DNA of 64,000 nucleotides. Origin: Nephromyces sp. MM_2019. Taxonomy: Eukaryota > Apicomplexa > Aconoidasida > Nephromycida. Positions 11,001 through 63,344 of the stretch are shown here, piece after piece; the stretch's first letter is position 1; every line of letters begins with the position of its first letter. The translations under genes were made by a program, and so were the position numbers. The stretch spans positions 1 to 64,000 of the forward strand of contig JADHZB010001758.1 in assembly GCA_015657535.1 (NCBI GenBank), in the 5' to 3' direction. The notes below the pieces were generated by a model, which did no database searches, was not told where the DNA came from, and was given only the letters and a program-made list of their open reading frames with translations.

Positions 11001-14000
11001 ATGATTTCAAAGTTCTTGCTTGAATTATTTCAACAGCTAAGCATTCAATCACTGCTAGTCCAAAGGTATAAGCTGCTCTTAATATAACTAGCGTTTTCTG
11101 CCCTTATAAAGCAATTTTACGGATAAATTTATGCAACTAAGGTGCACTCGCTGATAGAGTCGAATATGCTCTAAGCAACACTGATTACACAGCATTTAAT
11201 GCCCTAGCATACTATCGAACGTATAAAGGTGCCCACCAAGCATATAATCCTATAAAAGATCAAGAATTTAGCTGATACTCGGTACAAGCATCTACTAGCC
11301 TCCATATTTCGAGATGAGTATATACACTTGCATTAATTTTCATAAAAGAAACGCTTTTTTACATCACTAAGGAGGATAATCCTAAATGAAGTAAGCCTTG
11401 TCTCATGAACCTCATTCTTTCAATTGTCGTACTTGAGGTTTTCGGTGCAAGCATCACACCGGGTAACCTCCAAATTTTCAGTATCTAAACTTGCAAGTTT
11501 AAACTGAGTAACACTAGGGGGGCTTTGCAGCTCTTAAAGAGTAGTTCATGCCCTTAAAGTAGCTTTGCAGACTGCTTAAATGATGGCCTGCCATGGTTTA
11601 GCCTCTCACTAAACATAAAAGGACTCAAAAAATATTCTTCGCACCTGTAAAATTTGATAGACTAGAAATATAATGCGAGCTGCTGCCTGATGAAAAAAGA
11701 TAATCACTAAAATTCGAGTTTAGAGAGCCTGTAGATATTAATTCCGACATATTCGCGGTGAGCTGCTCTTTACCCTTATTTCGGGAAAGAAAGTGCCTAT
11801 TTACAGTAGCCAGAGTAGCCTTGTTATTCCAATTCCCTGCAAGAATAGCAGGCTCAACATATTCAGCATCCTGTGAAACATTGACTTTTCTAGTGCGAGA
11901 GAGGAGGGTATTATCTTTTGCTTTAAAGCAGTTTTTTTTCTCATTACCAACACAGAGGCCAGTATCCAACCCTGTATCCTCAATATTAGGAGAGCTACTG
12001 CTATTTGTCAAATCAGAATCGGCCGCAAGAAGGTATCTATCCTCCTCAGAGTTCTCATACGACCACGAAGAAAGTTTCGGTGGAACTAAAAGCTTAGAAA
12101 AACTCACAGCAAGAAGATCTTTGGAAGATATCGAATCCGAAATTCTGCAGCTCTCGCTTTGATCACAACTATCCTTAGGATTAAATTCCTCCTGCTCTTT
12201 ATATAATCTACCCTTTGGAAAAAATGACAACGATCCCAAACTCGGCTGAGCATCGGCGTCTCCTGTGTTTGAATAAGCACAAAATTAGCTAGGTAAGCTC
12301 AACAGAAAAAAAAATAAAGGCGTGAACTTCGCGTTTTCAAGCCCATACTTGTGCGAGAGGAAATACTCTCTCCCTTTGAAATTGTCTAAAACCCCGAAAA
12401 AATTGATGCAGAGATTCTCAGTTTTTAGCTTACCTATCGCATACTCCCGAGCACCTCCAGATAAGTCTCTGTTCCTCAAATCTTTCTGTGTATCAAGAAT
12501 TTTTTCCGCTTCATCTTTTGGATAAATAAGAGCACCCTTTAGAGACAAAAATTCATTGTTAAAATGGGGGAATAGCATACCATCTTCGTGCTTAGAAGCG
12601 GAATCATGAATAGAAGGTGAACAAGTAGAGTCCACTTCTTTGGATAACATGCTGTCATGAAGGTATCTGCTGGCTGATGCAGTTTCATCCTCATGATTTG
12701 TCATCCGCCAAATCCCCCTACCAATACCATAAGTCGAGCACGACCCACCGACTTCACTCAAATCCTGCTTATTCTCTTTAACCATCTGCTGCAAGGGTTT
12801 ATTGGCTATTTCCTTTAAAGTTCTGTCATTTCTGGCAAAAATATTGCCCGGGGACCTGAAGCTATGCGGAAACAAAAACTTTGAAGTGGGAGCAGCAGGA
12901 TTACGCAGCGGTAGCTCAATTTGTGATGGCATACTTGATAAGATAATATCTGCAGCTGACCTTTCACTAGGAGAGGCTACAAAATCATTTTCTGGAAAAA
13001 TTGCCACCTCCTGTCTATAAGTATCAGGAAGGGAGTCTACCACATCGGGAGTAATGTTGGAGGTATAATGGGATAATCCGAAATTCTGAGCAATTTCTTC
13101 AGGGGAATTTTGCTCCGAGTTAGAAACGCCAAGTAAGTCTCCATCTCCAAAATAAGGCGTCTCCTTCATTTTATGGACTAAATCTATACCGGCAGCTCGC
13201 AGCTTGCTTAGTCCTAAGGATTCATCAAACTCGAAATTATCACCATTATTGTTCATACAAAGCTGTGAAGAAATGCCTTGCATTGATAAATGGTCTTGAG
13301 GTAGCCCACTATAAGTACCTGCCGTAGACTCATCAGTTTCAAAGATTGGAAATTGTGGAAAATGTCTTTGCCTTGTATCCTGACCTATTGTTTTTGAGCT
13401 GCAGATGGAGGATTTTTGTATGTACCCCTTAGAACTCATCAAATTTAATGGGTCAACGTTCTTATTAGCGCCATCTTCGGGCCATTCCACAGAATATGCT
13501 AGTGGAAGAGCAGGGAAGTCAGGTGTGTACTTCTCCGAAAATGCAGGTGCGATTGTTTTGATGATTCTCCCAGTAAAAATAGTGGAGTCCTCAGAGTCAG
13601 AACAATGGGCGCTATTATCAAGAGTGTGAGAATTAGTGCTTGGAATAACGGGAACATTATTAGTTCTTTGCGATTTCCACCAATCTTTTTGCTGACTTTG
13701 CATAGATAGTAATTCCCCCAGCTTCCAATCTCGGCTACTGCTTTGCTCTAGTTGTGATGGCCATAGTAGGCCATACTGGTTGGGACCAAAAGTGGGCATC
13801 TTTCTGCGATCCATCTCAACTCTGTAGCGACAGTCAGGAGAACAGGTATCAAACTCTACTTTGGAGGATGTGACAGGCTTCTGCGCAAACACCACTGGAC
13901 TACTGACATCTTTTTCGAAAAGACTTAACTGCAAACCATGCAGCTCAGACCCTCTTAGACTCTTAACAGGACAGCCTATATCGCTTGCACAGCTTATTCC

Positions 14001-17000
14001 AGTTGTATAATTCTGGTTAATTTTTTTATTTACATGCAGTGCGTAATTTTGATGGATTTGCATATCAGAACGGAATGCCACCCCGGAATTGCTACCTAGC
14101 GAATGCTCCAAGTGGTTTTTCCAAGAAATTAAATTATCTCCTTCCTGAGTGTTACTCTCACAGCTGAGTAGTAAATCAGACAAAGTTTCTTTTGTATCCA
14201 CAGCTTCCATGGCTTTTATCGCCCCCCCAATTTGAGGAGCGCGAGTATTCTGAGCGACTTGGACCGGCTTAAGCTCCCTGTCAGCATTTGTCATCCTCAA
14301 AAACCATTGAGTAGTCCCCGCCGAAGCATCCAAGCAGGGATCTGCCGTAGGTAAATCTTCACACCTAGTAGATGATGTATCTGCGTACGCACTATTTTCA
14401 TGACTGATTCCATTAGGATTTTCACTCCTAGAATACTTCACAAAGCATTTAACAGAGTCTTCTGAGCTATATTTTCGCTGCATTATTAGCCTCTTAACGC
14501 TAGGACTGGTACTGGATGAATCGCTGATCGAGGACTTACTGCAGCACGTTCCATCAGAACTTTTATTGGTGAAAACTTGTTTTAATGAATTGTTCGAGTA
14601 TGCAGTGATCAAAACGGGATCCTCTTGTATCGTGCAGTATTTTTTTGTAGCTAGCTCTTTTTTCCTAGGAAGCTTCGAGTGCGAATTTTTATCCTCACCA
14701 CCAAAGCGAATTGGCGTCGCAATATTTTCTTCATGGTCTAAGGAAAGAAAATCGCCTACAGCTGGAGTCTCTGCCACTCCAATGTTAAATCCAGTACAAA
14801 AATTAGAGAAAGTACTAGATTTTGAATTAGAAACACCTGATTGAGTTTCAAGGGAACAGATAGAGGCAAAATTTGCGGCCACCTTATTATCTTGAGCAGG
14901 ATTTGGGGATCTGATATTCATGCAAACCTGCATACAGTAGAATAAGCAACTATGAAGGATATTTACTCTGTGGCCTAAAGAGGCAAGAAGAGAACGTATT
15001 CTTTGATGAAAAAATTAAGAGCAAATACAAACTCAAACGATAAAACACGGGTAATTCCATGGCATGCTACAGCATTGCATCACACTTTAATTCCAATATC
15101 TCCACACTACCCTTCATAAGCAAAATAAATTCTGAGAGAGTCTCGCTTACTGTAGCATCATCAGATATTGATTCTGAGAATTGCTCTGATTTGACGGAAA
15201 ACAAGTCAGAAGCATGAGGAGTTGCACACGAATTTTCAACAATCTCATGCTCTGAAGTACTGAAGATTTTTCTCGAAAGATTTTTCATCGAAATTAATTT
15301 TCTATCAAAGCATTTTAAATTTCTGGATGAGCAACTCGCAGTGTCATCCACCGTAGGAAAAACGCATGCCATCATCTGGGAACTCTCGCCAGAGATAGAA
15401 GATGCTGCGTTGCTATCTGTGCTCTCATCACTATTAGAATCTTCCTTATTGATCGGCTTAAACTCGATGCCAAAATTATCGCTGTACGCGTCACTAAAAT
15501 CAGTCGAATCTTCAATAGAATACCAGCTATCCTGAAAATGCGGGCCAACTGGCTCAACCAGAGGGGTCGAGTAGTTCATGTCTTCAGCTATTTTTGCTGC
15601 ACCAGATAAGGAGCGAGTGCCCTGCACCAGTGTGTCTTCATGAAGCGACATATCACCAAGAGATACATATTTCTGTGCTATATGTTGCTTGCCTTTTTCA
15701 GACCGTAATTTCTCACTGCAATACTGAAAACCTTCTGGTATAGCATCTAAGGCATTCTCCTCTTGCCGTTCCAATACCGGGCTCATTTTTCGGTAAAATG
15801 AGTTAGGAGGCTTTAAAAAGAGATCCTCACAATTATTTATACCTGGAAAAACTCTCCTTAAGTCACTGAGAATAGAAATACTAGAGTTAAGGTCAGAAAT
15901 CACGGAGCAGCTATCTTCACTATGTAGTATCTTCGCTGGCCTAAAAAAATCTACGGAGTCATGACTTTCATAAAACCTGCCATCTCCAGAAAACTCTGAA
16001 GCAGACATCAAGCTGGGCCTTAACCGGTCTTGTACAACTACGAATGCTGGGCCTATGCCGCTAGCCTTATATTCCGTACGGTGGAGTATAGAATTTGGCC
16101 TATTCAGGTAGCTTTCATATGATTGAAACTGACCGCTGAAGTTCAAATCTTTATCAAAGCTTCTGTACATTTTTGAGGCGCAGCTTGACTTACTAAGATT
16201 CGTAAGGGTATTTTGCGAAGAACTTTCTCCTGAACTTCGCGAAGCATTGAGGACGGTAGGAATTTCATAAAACTGCCTCTTTGAAGCTTTTACTAGAAAT
16301 TTATGCTTCCAAAAATCTTCATTGGAAGATGCATACAGCGACGGGCTCTTCTTAAAAGAGCCTGGATGATTGAAAGCAGTCATTGGTGAGGCTGAGAATA
16401 GGCTATCCCGCTTTGCCATAGATGATGACGGGGCGTCATTTCCATCATCTGCTACCTTCACATCCGAATCAACATTGTGATGCATTAAACCAGCCGAAAG
16501 AGTTTCAATAGACCTCTCTGGTTGATCCTTCTTACGCAGAGCTCTAAAATTATTATAACCCTCGTGTGTTGCTCTACCAGTCGCAGGACATAAAATGGCA
16601 TTTGAGGAACTTTCTTGATTATTGCTATACTGTGATAAAAACTCAGAGATACTTTGTTCCTGGAAGTGACAATTATTTTTCACATCCGTCAATATTGAGT
16701 TCATTGTTGACCACCTAGGAATATCCTTCCGATCTACAAACAAACCAGCTCTAAGTGGGGCACTACTAGGATTCCCAGTGCCACAACTATTCTTTGTTAT
16801 AAAATTAAAACTTCCATTAGATGGTGAATAAAAAGATTCTTGCGCATCAATATCACAGCAATGAGCATCTAGGCAATCTTCCTGCTCTGTACTTTCTTTT
16901 TGAGATAGCTCATATAATTTCATTTTAAAGAGGTTCAGATCAAAAAAATTATCATCGTGAGGGCCACAGAATCCCAAGCCCTCCTTTGTATAGATTCCTT

Positions 17001-17169
17001 CCCAAGGGATATGAAGCGCACTCCCAACATCTGAAGCATAACTAGACGATGTAGCGTTACCATCTTCTTCATGCAAGCAGGCTTCACCAAATTTGAACCC
17101 CTTTTGCTTTGTACCAGTGCACTGTCCTACATGCCCATCATCACGAAGAAATTTCCTGGGATTGCTCAT
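8081..17169 (-). CDS. Very large serine-rich protein (about 2,022 residues) with a compact, possibly polo-box-like C-terminal domain
   Basis: Six minus-strand exons keep phase throughout: 17169-15151, 14927-12434, 12262-11645, 9643-9197, 8709-8307 and 8168-8081 (TAA). Donors are GTAAGC, GTAAGC, GTGCGA, GTAAGA and GTCAAG. The start ATG at 17169 (MSNPRKFLRDDGHVG) has a TAG seven codons upstream, although an acceptor-like ATTAG leaves room for an earlier exon. Residues 1 to about 1,860 are low-complexity, rich in Ser, Asn and Asp, and presumably disordered. The last 160 or so residues differ: strands such as MWIHSKYGLVEVTASGEF and ELIFIIENGGQGVRI are followed by a helix (IGRVLKRFAARTSLVAAAYE). 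That strand-strand-helix order, with a Gly-Glu turn, recalls the cryptic polo box of PLK4/SAK. There is no kinase domain, so this is only a structural suggestion. A scaffold role is an inference. Confidence 0.72.
9644..11644 (-). other. 2.0-kb intron of the serine-rich gene
   Basis: Donor GTGCGA at 11644 and acceptor TATTTAG at 9644, both on the minus strand, joining codon phase 1. The interior is AT-rich, with no further exon that I can place. A small exon could still be hidden here because the donor is weak. Confidence 0.5.
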
Positions 17170-20100
17170 AGCCTCAAGCGTTATTCGCTAATCGGTAATT
17201 TATTTATGTCATCATAGTGCTACCAGGATAAAACAGCGAATATCGTAAAGGAGTATATAAAACTATTCATGGTATTAGCCATGGTGGTGGGTTGCGACCT
17301 AGGTAAATATGACAAGCATAAGCGCCTTGTAAAATATCTATCTTGATTGAGCGCATCATGAGGATTACACGAACAGATTCCTACCTGAAATGTCATATTC
17401 TGTGTGCTTTTCCATAAAATAGGACAGTGCAAGAACGAAGTTGCTATACATATGACATAGCAAACATCTGTCTCGTCAGGTATGACTGGGATATAATGAG
17501 CCCTTTGTTTCGCCTAGCCAAGAGTCACGTCCCATTTCTTTCTGAAAGAGCGGCGATGAAATGGAATATTGCCAGCTTAACAATTTGGTTCATCCCTATG
17601 AAGTCCCATATCTTTGAGGCCTATAAATAAGATGAAGAGCTTCTAAGGAGTCGAAATTATCAAAGCAATACAAGTTATCCACAACGGTGATGCTCAGTAA
17701 GTCAACAATGTGAAACTCCAGTTTTTCGCAATTTCTACAAAATTTCAAAGCAAACATCCATTTTTATGGAGTGCACTGCTCATGAATACCCAGGAACTGC
17801 TACGAGAAATAGAGCTAAAGTGAGAATCAGCGTTGAGCTTTAATATGCTTACGAACTGCCATGAACTAAAAAAAAGCAACATAATAATTGCGGGATGATT
17901 GAACAAATGGCGAAAGTAATCACTGCGCTTTTCGCGTTAACAATGAAAGACATGTGAGGACACTGCAGCGGGTTCCAAGCAAGAAGTTAAATGTGCACCA
18001 TGGAAATTCCATGCCACCGCAACAGATCAGATGCTCAAGGTACAGCATATTCAATAGTTGGAAGAAAATTTACCTCATTTTATGCACCGTTGTGCCTCTA
18101 TACAGTGATCCCGAAAAAATTGCAAAGTATCCTGGTAATTACAAGCTTTTGGCCTTGGAAAAGAGCTCAGCTTATTAATCTTTCCCTACGTGGCATCATG
18201 ATCACCTAACAGATCCACTTTCCTTGTATCAATGGCGTAATAATATGGACTAGCAGCTATAGGCAATCATTTTTTTCACCTCAATGGAACCGACTCTTTA
18301 GTTAGTTAAGTTAAATTTAATGAATACATTCAACCTGTGCCTTCATTGAGCAGGTTTCTTCGAGGCACAGGTTAAGTCGCTAAATCAGAGATCAAAATTG
18401 AAGTTATTGAGCATCAATAAAAGTTTTAGAGTCTGAGGACTACAGGCATGCAGGAGGTAAATTTAAGCACATTGCGAATACGCCGTGTATAAACTTGTTG
18501 GAATATCGGAGGTGATATCGTGATGTTTTCTTCAGGTGCCTCACATACAGTGTATTACTGCGAATATAGGGTGGCAGGTTACAGCCATTAATGCTAGAGT
18601 ATGCAAGTTCTGCTGCATTTGAATACGAGCCATATTGACAATATTTCATGCTAATAAGCGTGTCTGATGGCTCAGACTACATGAACCCAGGTTTTACGGG
18701 GTACTCCTAGCAGCATGTAGATTCAGAGCTAGCCAGAAACTACAGCGTTTTTGTTAGCTCACGGTACAGCATTTCATCAACTTTGTTGACCAGGTTACTA
18801 AGCCCGAAATCAACCCAATAAGACACCAGAACATTACGGGTTGGAATGCACCAGCTTGGAGGCGCGCGCTATATCACGTTTTAAGCGGCGGCCGTTTAGC
18901 TTTAGGTTTTTTGTGAATTGCACTATGGAAATAATGAGCCATAAACCGGAGAGTTACCCACTCTTAAATTTGGGACGAGATTTAAATCGCTAAAAAATTT
19001 AGGGCTGGACTTTCAGCAATATAGCTGTAATAAGCGCGTTTTTGGTTTTTTTTATCATAAAAACGTTGTTACAAAGAGACTGGTATGGAAACGTTCTTAG
19101 TAATCGTGCTTGATGCTAACCGATGCAATATATACGCTAGCTTGAATTACGAGCAATGTAGACCATAGCGGTTGGGCAGCAGGAACTGCATTCGAAAAAG
19201 AAAAGCTGCTACGAAAAATTATTACCCTTTACTTCCTGCTATAAAATTGCAGTTTCAGCAAACCTCACGAGATTGAATACTGACTCCCATATTGGTTTGA
19301 CGGTAATTTTAGATCTCATGGATTTTATAACTGCATAAATATTGCCCATGTCAACTGTCAGATTATAGCCTCTGTGACAAGCACAAAGTTATTTGATCTT
19401 GATGGAAGAGAAAAAATAGCTCCTCTGATTCAATGGCTCCGATGGAGCCCGATTAACAAGCTACATAAATATGCTTATGATCCATCAACTCACACTCTTA
19501 TTGAATAGCTGAAATTAGAAAGTCCAAGCAACTCTTAGTGCCAATAAAAAGGAAAGATGCTTCAATGAAAGGTATCCCCAAGAGCAACTCTAGGGAATAT
19601 TCTCGTTGACCGCCTCCAATGCCTGACTACAAAAATTTAAGGCTTGTTTAATACGTCAGTAGAAAGTACATAACTAAGTTATGCATACTCTAGTGCAATG
19701 CATACTGGTAGATAAAGGGTACCTTGCTAGTTTATCATCTTTTTAAAACGTCTAGACCATAATAATGTTAGCACAGGCGATGCCGTTATTGGTATATCAT
19801 TTGAACAGATTGAATACGATCTGCAGTTACGCGCTATAAAGCTGTATACCAACTCTCAGGGAAAATCAAGTCTTTAGCGAACATAATGCGTAAACGTGGC
19901 TTACCCATTTTTTATACTTTATCAAGCAGTGATTGAATACCTTCTTGAATAAAATGCTTAACAAATGCAAAAAATATTAACCCCGGTGAAGGTATTTATT
20001 AGGGAACAGTGAAGGTCACAAGATGCAGCTATGCACATATGGTCGAAAACTTGGGGGATCATAATGGAAAGGAAGCAAAATTAGTAGTTTTAGGGGGCTA

Positions 20101-31641: not shown

Positions 31642-41487
<9,846 letters not shown>

Positions 41488-42857
41488 TTTCTGAGCAAAA
41501 TGAATCGGCAGTTAAAGGCTGATTGCACCCTCTGAGAAGGTAGGATTCTCGTGTGTTTACCAATTTTATAGCTGTGACAAAGGCAAACTTCGGTGATGTA
41601 AAGCCTACAAATACTGTTTTAGAAGCTTTTTGAGGGAGATTTTCACTAGCATGTTGGCCATTCAGTGACGATAATTCATCAAAATATAGAAAACCCAAGA
41701 ACCAATGAAATGTCTTAACACATGGAAATTTTTGTACCAAATAGAGGATTTGGAGAAAGGTTGGATCGCATTCAAATCTGCTATTGTGGTCTAAGAAGTA
41801 GCATTGAGGAATGGGGAAATTTGATTTCTCTCGCTTCTCTGTGACCAGTAGTTCGATGTAAAGGAGATGAGTTACAGTTACGAGATGGAGTGGGCATTTA
41901 AGTAACGCACCCCAGATAAGCTGTGGCTAGAAATAACTAGTAGTAGTTTTATGACTGAATCTCTAATGCGTTTATGTGTGTGGCAGTCACACACAAAAAT
42001 GAAGGCAGTGAATCTAGGAGGAGTGGATTTTAAGTAGATGGTATTATAGCAACTTCAGCAGAGAAGCTTCGATTTTTATTACTTTGTTGTCTTTAATGTA
42101 TTCGATCGCCATAGGCTCTACCTAGTTTTTCAAGGTATTCCTCTTTCAAGGTTTGTATTTATGTTTATTTCTTGATATAAGAGGAGCACTCTAGCGTGTA
42201 ATAGCAAGAGTTGTTGGCCACTAGAGTTTTTGCCGCACCTCTTTAAGCTGAAATATGCTGGAAACTGTCTCAAACTAAACTGAGTGAGACAGAATTTTCA
42301 TTACGTTGAATAAAGGTGGTTTGGATTGCAGCGAATTAATAATCCATTTAATGCACTTAATAAAACAGCAAAAGAAGCAGTGGAGACACCATATGCATTG
42401 TCTAGAAGAGAGAAACGTCGATTGCGCTTGCAAGTTTCTTCAAGATGATTACTCAGGTTCCATAGGGCTAGTAGCGCCTTTGTGAGCTAAATAGTTGATA
42501 CACAATGAATAGATTTGGTTCTTTAAGTACATAAATGTGTGCGAAATTTTTGAGCTTTTTTAACTTCATTTTTTAAAAGAGAAATTTTTTCTAATAATTT
42601 TTTAATTATCCTTTTAGTCTAAGGAATAACAAGCGATTGCATTACAGATATTGCGCTTGAGAACCAGAAAATTATTAAAGGCTTTTTTAACTTTCATGCA
42701 ATCATATATGACCCGCTAGTTGAATATATTATGACTGGATTTTTATCCTTTGTAAATGCTTTTTTCTCCTTGTTTGCACAAGCAAAAAAGCTCGTGAAAT
42801 TTCGCCGAACTGACTGCAGTCTCGTTTTATGGATGTTATAGCTCTAAACGGTAAACG

Positions 42858-58033: not shown

Positions 58034-61000
58034 ATGGAGGATCTCAACTCTAAAGTGCAGCTACATCAGAGCAAGTGCCCTTATGACCCTAAGGAAAAAT
58101 TGAAACAAACAGACGCAAACTCTCTTTATACAAATCCGAAAGAGCTGCTTTGCAAGGATGATAAATGTTGCATTTGGCAAGATCTACAATTTTGGTTTGG
58201 ATACCAGTCAAAGAGGCTCTCAGAAGATGATTTTCAAAACTACTTTAGGGACTCAGCTAGAAATGGTTCTGGGTAAAAAAAAATATCAATTTTTCTAATT
58301 ACGTGCTCTTTTAAAAAATTTTTTATTCAATTTACTCATATCCCTTTGCAAACCATTATAGTTGATCAACTGAATTTGTAAAATAGAGCTTTTTCTTTGG
58401 GTGCAAAGCATTTTTATTTATTTTTAGTAAGGCGCCAACGATTATCCTACAGAATTATATTACTAAAAAAACGCAAAAAATCTAAGTTGCATTCGTAGAA
58501 ATTGTTTTGCGTATTATCTTTTGCGTATGGATACTTAAGCCAATCTGCTGGACACTGTATTAAAACAAGTAGAAATTAATCGTTTTTTACTGCTTCTCCT
58601 TGTTTATAAATTTTTCTGTATATAAATATAGTATTTATTGAATGAAACTCAAAAAATTTAGAATATAAGAGTTCAATATTTGTTCCTAAATGAAAGACTT
58701 GCTATATTTTGTTTATATTTTATGCTAACAGGCTTTATGAAAAGTTGGTTGTCCTGGGAGGTAAATTTTTATTCGCTGCGGCGGAAATGTTCTTTCTAGA
58801 AGACTTTGATAGGAATGAGAAATCCAAAGGAATCTTGTGCTGTCCTGTGGATTTTAAAGACGTGCCATTGAAGCGTAACATAATCAGATTTTTATATGCT
58901 CAAAAACGCAATGAAAGAATTGTATCCCAAAAATCGCTGTTCAAATTTGGCAAGTGCTATTTAAAGCATGCCCAAAAACTTGACTCAGAAATTCAGGTTG
59001 CACAATACGTTAAAGCATGCATTGGTTATTGCTGCCATACTACTAAATTAGATAGATTTCACCTTGAAGGAGACCCTGAAAGCCAAAGGACTTCTTCAGT
59101 TTTAGACTGGCTATTCCCTGTGGTTAAGCACATTTACTGGATTCAAGGGTAAGTAACAATATAACACCAGCTTGTAAGATATGTTTCTTATCAGCTTAAA
59201 ATATAACTTAGCAAAGACAACTAAATAGTTTTGGCTGTGAAAAAATATTTTAAAGTGACCAGCTAGCTTGGACAATGACGGTCGCCGTTCTAAGCGTTTT
59301 TTTTACACTTGGCCAGCACATTTCAGCAACTTAATGTATTCTCTTTATTTTTTTTTTAAGTGCAAGTTTTAAATACTTGCATTTGACATGAAATAATTTT
59401 ATATTGTGGAAAGTTTTATAAACTGAAAGTTATGCATACTCCAAATTCATTAATTTTGTGGGATCATATTTTAAACGCAACTTCTAAAATTTGCTCAAAC
59501 TTAATATTCTGCTGTTTTTAAAGCCAGCACCAAACTGAAAAGGGAGATTTTACCACTAGAGAATTTATTCAGGATTTACAAGCGTATCTTGGATATAGAG
59601 GTAAATTTTTTTTGATCAAAAGGGAGTCATTCTTTTTAATAACACATTAAGGGGAGAAAAAAGGTTAAACACAATAGCATATTTCAAAGAAATAGCTCTT
59701 CAAATTTTTTTGCTATAAAATAGTATCTTTACGCAAATTGAAAGGCTTTTATCTCATATATGACAATATGCCAGTCATGAAACTTGAATATGTTAGAGGT
59801 ATAAGTTATAAAAAAAAGCCGTGCAGCTGGAAAAAGTTGGAAAAACAATCATATTTAGGTGAATCATTAGAAAGCTTTATTGGCAACATAAAGGCTAAAC
59901 TTGAGCACTTGCTAGAATTTTATTGATCCAAGTAGTTTTGATTTTTACAAATACATAAAAAAATTGCAAGGTTACGGCCCCGTATAAATTGGAGACCTGC
60001 GGAGGTTAAAGTAAACTAACAAATCTAAAAAGTTTTAATGATGGACGAATTTGGCTTGAGAAAGCTTTTATATTGCTACTTTAATTTAATAAGCTATGCT
60101 TTTTTATGCAGATGATAAACTTTTGCCAAGAATAATAGATGCCCTGCAATCAGAGCACACCGAATTTCAGGTATACTGCTTTTTAATTTAGTTTCTAGAC
60201 TAAAAAAATATTTTGACTCTTTATGCCATTTCGTTTAAAATTGAGCGCGCTTATTTAATATTTTTTTTGCTTTTTAATTTAGGCAGATACTCAAACTGGA
60301 GAACAGCTATTGCACCAATTTACATCTGAATACTTTAAAGAAATTGCAGCGGTAAGCTTGAAGTACTGCTTAAATTATCATTGGGTACGAGGACTTTTTC
60401 TAGTGAATTTCTAAAATTGTGGTGTTTTGCCTTAAACATCCACCTATTATTTTCGTAAGGGAAACAGGATACAAAAGGATTAATTAATAAGATTGAAAAA
60501 AATTATATGAGCGTGCAGTAAAAAATTTTGAATAGTATTCATTTTTTGAAATTTTGTTTTTAAAAAATGTTTCTAACAAATTTTTATAGCTGCTTTGGGT
60601 TTCATTAGAATTTTTCAATTAAATTTTGAATTATCTTAAAGAAGCATCTTTTTGAATTTTTTTTTACAAAGAAATAAACACTCTTTATGTCATATGAAAT
60701 TTTTTTTGTGGGCTGATTTGTTTTGCTGAGTTTCTGAATTACATGGCAATAAATTATAAAGTTTATTTATATAATATAATATTCAAATATTAAATCCGTA
60801 AAAACTCAGACTTGTAAGCTCTTTTAATTTGAAACTTGTAGGCTAACAGCTATAAATGTATGGGTTTTTTACCGTTTTTTATATCAAATGGCAGTTAGAG
60901 TTTAAAAAAAAGCAATATAACTAACTTCAGATATTCTATGTTTGTCTTGCATCTAACTTAAGCAAAGTCTCGAAAGCTTGTCTATGCTTTTTTTCAGCTC

Positions 61001-63344
61001 AACTTTGAGGTCCCGGATAATAGCAAAAATTGGATAGAGCACAAAGCCAATGAGTTGATAAAAAGTGACGCTTGTGCTATCTTTGGTTGCGTATATTTAA
61101 ACTTAATACCTTTAGCTAACAAATATGCCGTTTATCAACAACCTCCAGACAGCAGCTTTTTTGATGCGACTTTTAAGTGAGAATTTTGCTGTGGAAGCCT
61201 AAATTCACTCGTAATTTTTTTAAGTTATCTAACTCAAAGGTTTATTGTAACTATTTCTTTTGGTAGAAACGACTTGTAATACCTTTAGCTTTCTATAATT
61301 TTTTCAAGCCTTAACTACTGCCTTATGCTCTTTATATCTGGCTAACTGCTGAAAGGCGCTAAGATGTGCATTCCTTCACTTTTTATATTATCAAGCTTAC
61401 TATGATGAACAATTTCAGGAAAGAGTTGAGTAGTATTAGGGAGTCTAGTTGAACCGGGTTTTGAGTCCAAATTTTTTCAATAAGATAATAAAATAATTTT
61501 TTGAAACCCCGACTAATCCTTCAGCCTGAATTTAATGCATCAAAAAAGAGTATTTACTCGTTTTATTTTATAAAAATTTACTGGGAGGTGAAATAAACTT
61601 TTCTTAGCCGGAAAAATGCTATTATAAAAGTTAAATTAGCAATTAATGGAAATTTTTTTTAAATTTGAGTAAAATTTTTCTGTTTGGATGCTCTAGTTTA
61701 ATATATAAAGGAGTTAAAACTGCTATTAACTTTCATAATATTTATGCTTGCGTTGTCACTAGTTTAGTAAAAATCAAGGAATGCGCAGGTCACGACTATA
61801 ATATCAATTAACGAATAATCTTAAATGAGTTTAAGAATACTTGGTTTTTAAAAATTAAAATTAAGTAGAAAGAAATTTTCTTATTGAAAAAAAAATCAAA
61901 GTTTTGGCACTAACAATCTTAGTTATCGGAAATAGTAGCCGTTTAGCTTGAAAAAACAAAACCTTATATTTAAGTACTCTAAGAATTAAAGGTTTCCCAT
62001 CAGTGAGTCCCCTAAAATGTTATTTTTTATTTATAGATCTTTACTCGCAAGTTGCTGGGTCTTATCTGGTGAGCAATTAGGAAAAGTGTGGCTCCTACAG
62101 CTTGTGCAAAGGCTTAGGCAGGTAGCCACCCAAAGCTTTTGAAGACCTTGCATAAAACATTTCTTTTTATATGCAAGGCATTTTGCCGTTACTATTTTAT
62201 GACCTCTAAGGCTTACTCTTTAAGTTTTTTTCTAAGTTTTGTTGCATATATTTTTTGAAATTTTTTTGAAGCTTTATAACACAGTTAAAACTTAAATTCA
62301 TGGATTGAATCAAGAAATTTTTTTTTTGTTAGATAAAATTTATATAAGTCACAATTTAAATCCCCTGAAATGATTATTATTTTATTTAGTTGTGAAATCA
62401 GTATATTTTCTTAGTGGACAAACATCTAAATACCGCTTTTTTCGGAAAATGTGTTTTTGGTTTTTTCTTTAAGTTTACATACATATTTTCTAAATTCCTT
62501 AAGGAAATTCTTACCTAAATCTAGCTACGGAACCCTTCTGAAAGTTAGCTTCAGGTATGCTATCTGCTCATAGAGACGCAACTTGTAACCTTACGATATT
62601 AACAGATCCAACTGGTCACCCAGCTTTCTGAGTCTATGGGCGATATACCAAACAGAGGCAATTTTATAGAAAGCCAATCTTTGCCAATAAAACTTTCAAA
62701 CTTTTGGCACTGCCCGGATCAGTTAATTCCTAATTTGCACTTGTTCAACCTTGAAAACTTGCGATTCGATATCGGTTAGTTAGAAAACATCAATATAAAT
62801 AAAGCCTTACATGTGTAATTTAAAAAGTTAATGTGCACCAAGGAAGCATTTGGATAAAATCCCCCTGTTTTTTTAGTTAAACTACAATTTTGAGTCTAAG
62901 TAAGTAGTGGCAAAACATGGCTCAGTAACTGCGTGCCTGTAATGTGGATCGGTGAATTCCCTTGTATTTAAACAGCTTGTCCCCTATGTCGATGATTTTT
63001 TTAAATAATGGTAAACTGCTTCTGGAAGTCGTGGCACCAAATTACTGCACGCAGCAGGCGAAACATCTGCACAAGCCGCACTCAGAGATTTAAAAAATAG
63101 TAGTTCCGAATATGGCAAAGTTGAAAATATAGAAAAAATTAACAGCCTACCCATCGGAGTTCATAATTCCAGCACTCTGAAAAGCGAAGCATATGACGAG
63201 AGCAACACTGCTGGAGAAAGGGAAGGCGCGTTGCCGAAGTTAAAATTATTTAGGATATTCCCCATTGGAGAAAATAAAAATAGTAAATCGAAGCATTCCT
63301 CAGCTTCAGAATCCACAAGTAAATTGATAAAAGAATTTTTTTGA
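58034..63344 (+). CDS. Dicer-like protein with two catalytically degenerate RNase III domains and a dsRBD-like C-terminus (pseudo-Dicer)
   Basis: Ten plus-strand exons keep phase: 58034-58272, 58732-59148, 59524-59600, 59724-59798, 60112-60170, 60283-60351, 60998-61176, 62037-62121, 62606 to about 62778, and about 63029 (or 63055) to 63344 (TGA). The product is about 552-562 residues. RNase IIIa: LYEKLVVLGGKFL (81-93) matches the LERLEMLGDSFL-type signature, and VAQYVKACIGYC (169-180) the ADCVEALLGCYL type. RNase IIIb: FQADTQTGEQLLHQFTSEYF (288-307) matches YQRLEFLGDAILDYL, and FDATFKSLLAS...LSGEQLGKVW the GDIFESLAGA...DSG...VVW type. Every metal-ligand position is changed: V86, G90, Q171 and K174 in the first domain; T292, E296, A369 and K372 in the second. 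Spacings (4 and 3 residues) are exact. The last exon holds AGETSAQAALRDLKN, like the final helix of a dsRNA-binding domain. No helicase or PAZ is seen. It may bind dsRNA without cutting. Confidence 0.75.

Follow-up and report, generated by a model that had tools for sequence, protein, structure and literature searches.

The 64,000 nt stretch analysed here (the window) covers positions 1-64000 of contig C911 (JADHZB010001758.1) in the eukaryotic assembly of Nephromyces sp. MM_2019, which has a size of 48.3 Mb and consists of 1127 contigs. From position 58034 onwards its forward strand carries a gene that is itself real and conserved; its product on balance probably belongs to an apicomplexan family of proteins with a putative zinc site and two degenerate RNase III-like domains in tandem, functioning as a metal-free scaffold that does not cut RNA. 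Members of the family occur in both coccidians and haemosporidians, among them malaria parasites without canonical RNA interference (RNAi). A first-pass annotation of the locus, which had described a Dicer-like protein without any of the eight RNase III metal ligands, was right in outline, while the evidence it gave was weaker than it looked.

The first search with the window protein gave a single relative, from Eimeria stiedai; a search with the Eimeria stiedai protein returned 14 proteins including itself and the alignment of these returned 15, resulting in 26 different relatives in all. These comprised nine proteins from Coccidia (Eimeria, Cyclospora, Neospora, Besnoitia and Toxoplasma), 12 from Plasmodium, one from Hepatocystis and four others, with all 22 named relatives being apicomplexan. 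The search was limited by shared words and protein length, with approximately 8000 candidates scored per round, and hence absence of the family from other groups means little. The relatives were annotated as "apicomplexan specific protein, related", "conserved Plasmodium protein, unknown function" or "hypothetical protein", and searches of the open-licence literature in PubMed Central listed no earlier description of the family as RNase III, although it may be described elsewhere. In the layout shared by the family members, an N-terminal putative zinc site is followed by two helical domains, then by a linker with little conservation and, at the C-terminus, by a small segment that is conserved. 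The C-x4-C motif preceding domain 1 was present in all 27 aligned sequences (the 26 relatives and the window protein), and H-x3-C was found near the N-terminus in 25/26 relatives, the one without it (P0003) having a different annotated start; these residues may bind zinc.

The assignment to RNase III is built on structure and family profiles; the sequence blocks in the window alone were no better than chance. Structural comparison of the family model, a check proposed in the first-pass annotation, gave a clear RNase III match for domain 1 alone, which strongly suggests that this domain has the RNase III fold and places it in the RNase III fold superfamily, whereas the rows obtained for domain 2 were mixed and weak. 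In a second model, of the core, the structural rows for domain 2 were again weak and the Foldseek matches not significant. We compared profiles of the two domains, constructed from 25 relatives and the window protein after leaving out P0001, which has an insertion, and removing columns filled in <40% of rows. The profiles of domains 1 and 2 matched along 136 columns, with 0/200 shuffles as good, and the domain 2 profile matched bacterial RNase III with 1/200 shuffles as good. The helix order was also similar in both domains of a low-confidence model (eight helices, one of just four residues, and seven). We infer that domain 2 has an RNase III fold as well, and the tandem arrangement is supported, with less security than domain 1. 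It is possible, if unlikely, that the degenerate RNase III fold is confined to domain 1 and that domain 2 is a helical domain of another kind; the protein would then use domain 1 to dimerise with a separate RNase III protein, as the KREPB proteins of trypanosomes do with their single domain. This would explain why the clear structural match is limited to domain 1, but not the match between the two domain profiles or their similar helix order.

Several observations weigh against a relationship with RNase III. The first-pass annotation had recognised two pairs of RNase III signature blocks, and these were scored with a motif matrix built from 27 bacterial RNase III domains and 3000 shuffles. Block 1 of domain 1 was the best site of that domain, yet 400/3000 shuffles equalled its score, and the other three blocks were not the top-scoring sites. 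The Pfam family Ribonuclease_3 (PF00636) did not match the window protein or the 14/26 relatives scanned at E ≤ 10, phmmer and hmmsearch comparisons with PDB gave no sequence match for the protein or the family, and a hidden Markov model of bacterial RNase III gave a best whole-sequence score of 2.4 bits on the family. Foldseek gave no significant match, and the structural models were of low confidence. These results would all be expected if the likeness reflected convergent helical bundles in an all-helical apicomplexan protein unrelated to RNase III, which we consider improbable given the domain 1 structure and the family profiles.

The exons have GT-AG introns and splice into a single open frame from 58034 (eight exons, 58034 to 62774), followed by an approximate ninth exon:

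58034..58272, forward strand: exon 1, with the start codon, H-x3-C (H11, C15) and C-x4-C (C40, C45) of the putative zinc site, and the start of domain 1 (WFGY); from frame, clear tblastn and alignment.
58732..59148, forward strand: exon 2, with the bulk of RNase III-like domain 1; from frame, clear tblastn, alignment and the copy on contig C141.
58748-58750 and 58760-58762, forward strand: V86 and G90 in block 1 of exon 2 (YEKLVVLGGK).
59003-59005 and 59012-59014, forward strand: Q171 and K174 in block 2 of exon 2 (VAQYVKACIGY).
59524..59600, forward strand: exon 3, with the linker and the start of domain 2 (LQAYLGYR); from frame, C141 copy and weak tblastn.
60112..60170, forward strand: exon 4, the region of the second helix of domain 2 (LLPRIIDAL); from frame, C141 copy and weak tblastn.
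60283..60351, forward strand: exon 5, the block 1 equivalent of domain 2, with T267 (60289-60291), G270 and E271 (60301-60303); from frame, alignment, C141 copy and weak tblastn.
60998..61176, forward strand: exon 6, the middle of domain 2 and the start of its block 2, with A344 (61166-61168) and an intron splitting the K347 codon; from frame, C141 copy and weak tblastn.
62037..62121, forward strand: exon 7, the remainder of block 2 of domain 2 (SLLASCWVLSG) and its last helix (LLQLVQRLRQ); from frame, clear tblastn and C141 copy.
62606..62774, forward strand: exon 8, a conserved stretch 3′ of domain 2; from frame and C141 copy.
63055..63316, forward strand: exon 9, approximate, linker; from the frame test, with the donor read from sequence.

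When 5/26 relatives were used as tblastn queries, matches were clear on exons 1, 2 and 7 and weak on exons 3-6 (best E approximately 0.02 to 1.4 each). The acceptor of exon 9 is uncertain, as starts at 63055, 63058 or 63076 all keep the frame, and the exon ends at a donor-like site at 63317, read from the sequence (CACAA followed by GTAAAT). Frames resembling the Eimeria C-terminal segment (VKIRY ... FRAVLST ... VVLNFARRGEDG) were located 0.4-1.8 kb past the window, with VRVKI and DLRA recognised in them by eye and a weak tblastn match for this segment (39% over 28 residues, E 0.03 or 0.27 by search space). The donor-like site and these C-terminal look-alikes indicate that position 63344, previously given as the end of a ten-exon gene (58034-63344), is probably not the gene end; that model thus probably represents an incomplete gene, although its GT-AG exons in one frame stand, and the gene probably continues outside the window at C911 ~64405-65800. 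A reading of the last exon as a double-stranded RNA-binding domain was dropped, as there was no Pfam match.

The residues named in the first-pass annotation at the metal-ligand positions are all present, as V86/G90, Q171/K174, T267/E271 (292/296 in its numbering) and A344/K347 (369/372), its model having had 25 extra residues ahead of the domain 2 positions. The window protein therefore has V, G, Q, K, T, E, A and K at the eight positions, and as E271 is acidic, seven of eight rather than all eight lack an acid. In domain 1 of the 26 relatives and the window protein, the four positions are occupied by I/V/A, G/A/T/Q/S, K/R/Q and K/R, with an acid at any of them in 0/27 sequences, so that the residues required for catalysis are missing throughout. 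The domain 2 counts depend on the alignment of this domain to RNase III, which is less sure than that of domain 1, and its E41 position, which falls in a gap in the bacterial RNase III alignment, was placed by ungapped extension and the match to domain 1. With this placement the positions are mostly H/T/A, L/R/K, N/S/A and E, the fourth being E in 21/27 sequences, Y in three, F in one and K in two (the window protein and P0010); five of the 27 sequences have no acid over the four positions, 19 have one and three have two, and none has three or four. The equivalents of E38 and G44 in domain 1 and of G44 in domain 2 are invariant (27/27). Table 1 of PMC8708148 lists the E117K change in Escherichia coli RNase III as abolishing activity while double-stranded RNA binding is retained, and this matches the change found in domain 1 of the family. 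A more far-reaching, and rather unlikely, reading is that replacement of the acidic site in domain 1 by a conserved K/R pair (K-x2-K) is a functional charge reversal, which would form a metal-free clamp gripping structured RNA in an apicomplexan ribonucleoprotein not yet described.

A second copy of the gene was detected in the same assembly at C141:17607-19627, with 37% identity over 388 aligned codons (alignment without the insertion-bearing P0001). The intron phase was identical in 7/7 comparisons with the window gene, with five introns in the same alignment column and two displaced by 2 and 5 columns. The two copies differ at 49, 36 and 62% of first, second and third codon positions, respectively, a pattern expected under purifying selection. 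The NG86 method gave a non-synonymous rate (dN) of 0.63 and an undefined synonymous rate (dS), and as the synonymous sites are saturated, no dN/dS was obtained against this copy. Both H-x3-C and C-x4-C are broken in the C141 copy, which has no acid at the four domain 1 ligand positions and two acids in domain 2; if the assembly is mixed, this copy may be the orthologue of another apicomplexan.

The first-pass annotation had also proposed a non-cutting, double-stranded RNA-binding or dimerising protein, and a conserved non-cutting RNase III-like protein is indeed the best reading, with RNA or partner binding and dimer packing being what we infer beyond it. The two domains would form a Dicer-type pseudo-dimer by packing together, or else associate with the RNase III domain of a partner, and such a scaffold may hold structured RNA or a ribonucleoprotein partner without metal and without cutting. 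This role is proposed by analogy with the noncatalytic RNase III domains of trypanosome editosomes and of RNC1. The KREPB proteins of the former have one RNase III domain each; KREPB4-KREPB10 have a U1-like C2H2 finger and act in kinetoplastid mitochondrial RNA editing, whereas the apicomplexan family has H-x3-C/C-x4-C followed by two domains. As described in parts of PMC5770545, the noncatalytic RNase III domains of KREPB9 and KREPB10 are needed for editosome association via a conserved glycine, consistent with dimerisation. A tandem, fully inactive pair of domains had been thought to be new; however, sections of PMC8708148 and PMC11241334 describe RNC1 as a protein whose two RNase III domains both lack catalytic activity and which functions in chloroplast group II intron splicing. 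The likeness to RNC1, compared here by description and not by sequence, would be the tandem pair of inactive domains, which in the apicomplexan family depends on domain 2; RNC1 is a plant-specific chloroplast protein, in contrast to the apicomplexan family with its N-terminal H-x3-C/C-x4-C. A dead RNase III scaffold is not new in kind. If our reading is correct, a fold and an origin can be proposed as probable for the Plasmodium proteins of "unknown function" and the "apicomplexan specific" Toxoplasma proteins, together with a testable role in RNA binding without cleavage; they would be a further case beside RNC1 and KREPB, unusual in that conserved basic residues replace the metal site.

Dicer (Tg-Dicer in Toxoplasma) likewise has two RNase III domains in tandem, whereas in the apicomplexan family the acids are gone and no Pfam helicase was found. 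Neither a Pfam helicase nor PAZ was matched in the window protein or the 14 relatives scanned, and with the ligands lost as well the protein does not classify as a Dicer. The first-pass annotation had suggested looking for an intact Dicer and Argonaute in the same genome, and the assembly contained three Ribonuclease_3 matches, of which two are neighbours on C1007 and the third lies on C147. The pair belongs to a Dicer-like gene (C1007:8332-10351) in which both RNase III matches keep their acids, with upstream frames like the C-terminus of a Dicer helicase and a helicase-like motif (all read by eye). Given this separate gene and the missing helicase and PAZ, the description of the window protein as Dicer-like is unsupported. 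The third match is located at C147:13181-13318 (family positions 1-46, E 1.1e-7). One Piwi match was found at C1005:46970-47608 (E 6.9e-17), and the matched stretch contains TAG twice and TAA twice. Compared with the window, AC repeats are abundant and CpG is scarce in the C1007 and C147 stretches, and hence both may come from another organism, while the C1005 stretch is not AC-rich. Several related organisms may be mixed in the assembly, a suspicion based on alveolin matches that look like near-duplicate sets, on the spread in GC content (0.27-0.475 among the starts of 20 sampled contigs, 17 of them readable and the other three being all N) and on the second gene copy on C141. The alveolin family IMCp gave 20 matches in the assembly, and also matches one bacterial control, Caulobacter; these matches, along with the named relatives all being apicomplexan, led us to take the window as apicomplexan.

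If the protein regulated the Dicer pathway of the parasite itself, or served as a decoy in it, this would agree with the RNase III and Piwi matches in this assembly and with the Dicer and Argonaute of Toxoplasma reported in a section of PMC2877743. Such a role is very unlikely, since the family includes 12 Plasmodium clusters and one from Hepatocystis, and a listing in PMC3554617 gives P. falciparum as having noncanonical RNAi or none, while the composition of the C1007 and C147 stretches points to a possible origin in another organism. The retention of the protein in Plasmodium also makes competition with Dicer, as had been suggested, unlikely as its ancestral role.

A mitoribosomal role had been suggested as well, and is unsupported here. 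The proteins mL44 and mL57 are separate residents of the mitoribosome, and the apicomplexan protein could be a stable mitoribosome component resembling a fused pair of the two. Domain 1 has a human mitoribosome chain among its structural rows, and so has the model of domain 2 (7qh7_c and 6vlz_c, which we take to be mL44). We nevertheless regard this as highly improbable, as the Toxoplasma family member matched no PDB chain at E ≤ 1 (the presence of Toxoplasma gondii mitoribosome entries in the PDB copy searched being unchecked), and the N-termini inspected start close to the conserved H-x3-C and by eye are not presequence-like. Mitoribosome models of T. gondii have been deposited in PDB, as stated in PMC11652630 and PMC11742926, and the terms mL44, mL57 and RNase III are absent from the main texts of these two papers.

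Elsewhere in the window, the minus strand contains two long open frames at 12288-15014 and 15070-17187 (909 and 706 aa), which had no Pfam match at E ≤ 0.01 and perhaps represent a single large protein. Frames matching an FAD-binding monooxygenase family (PF01494) are located at 40172-40576 and 41023-41511, also on the minus strand (E 3e-9 and 3.3e-20, respectively), and a tandem array with a 10-base unit occupies 36443-36757 (31.5 copies, 87% matches).
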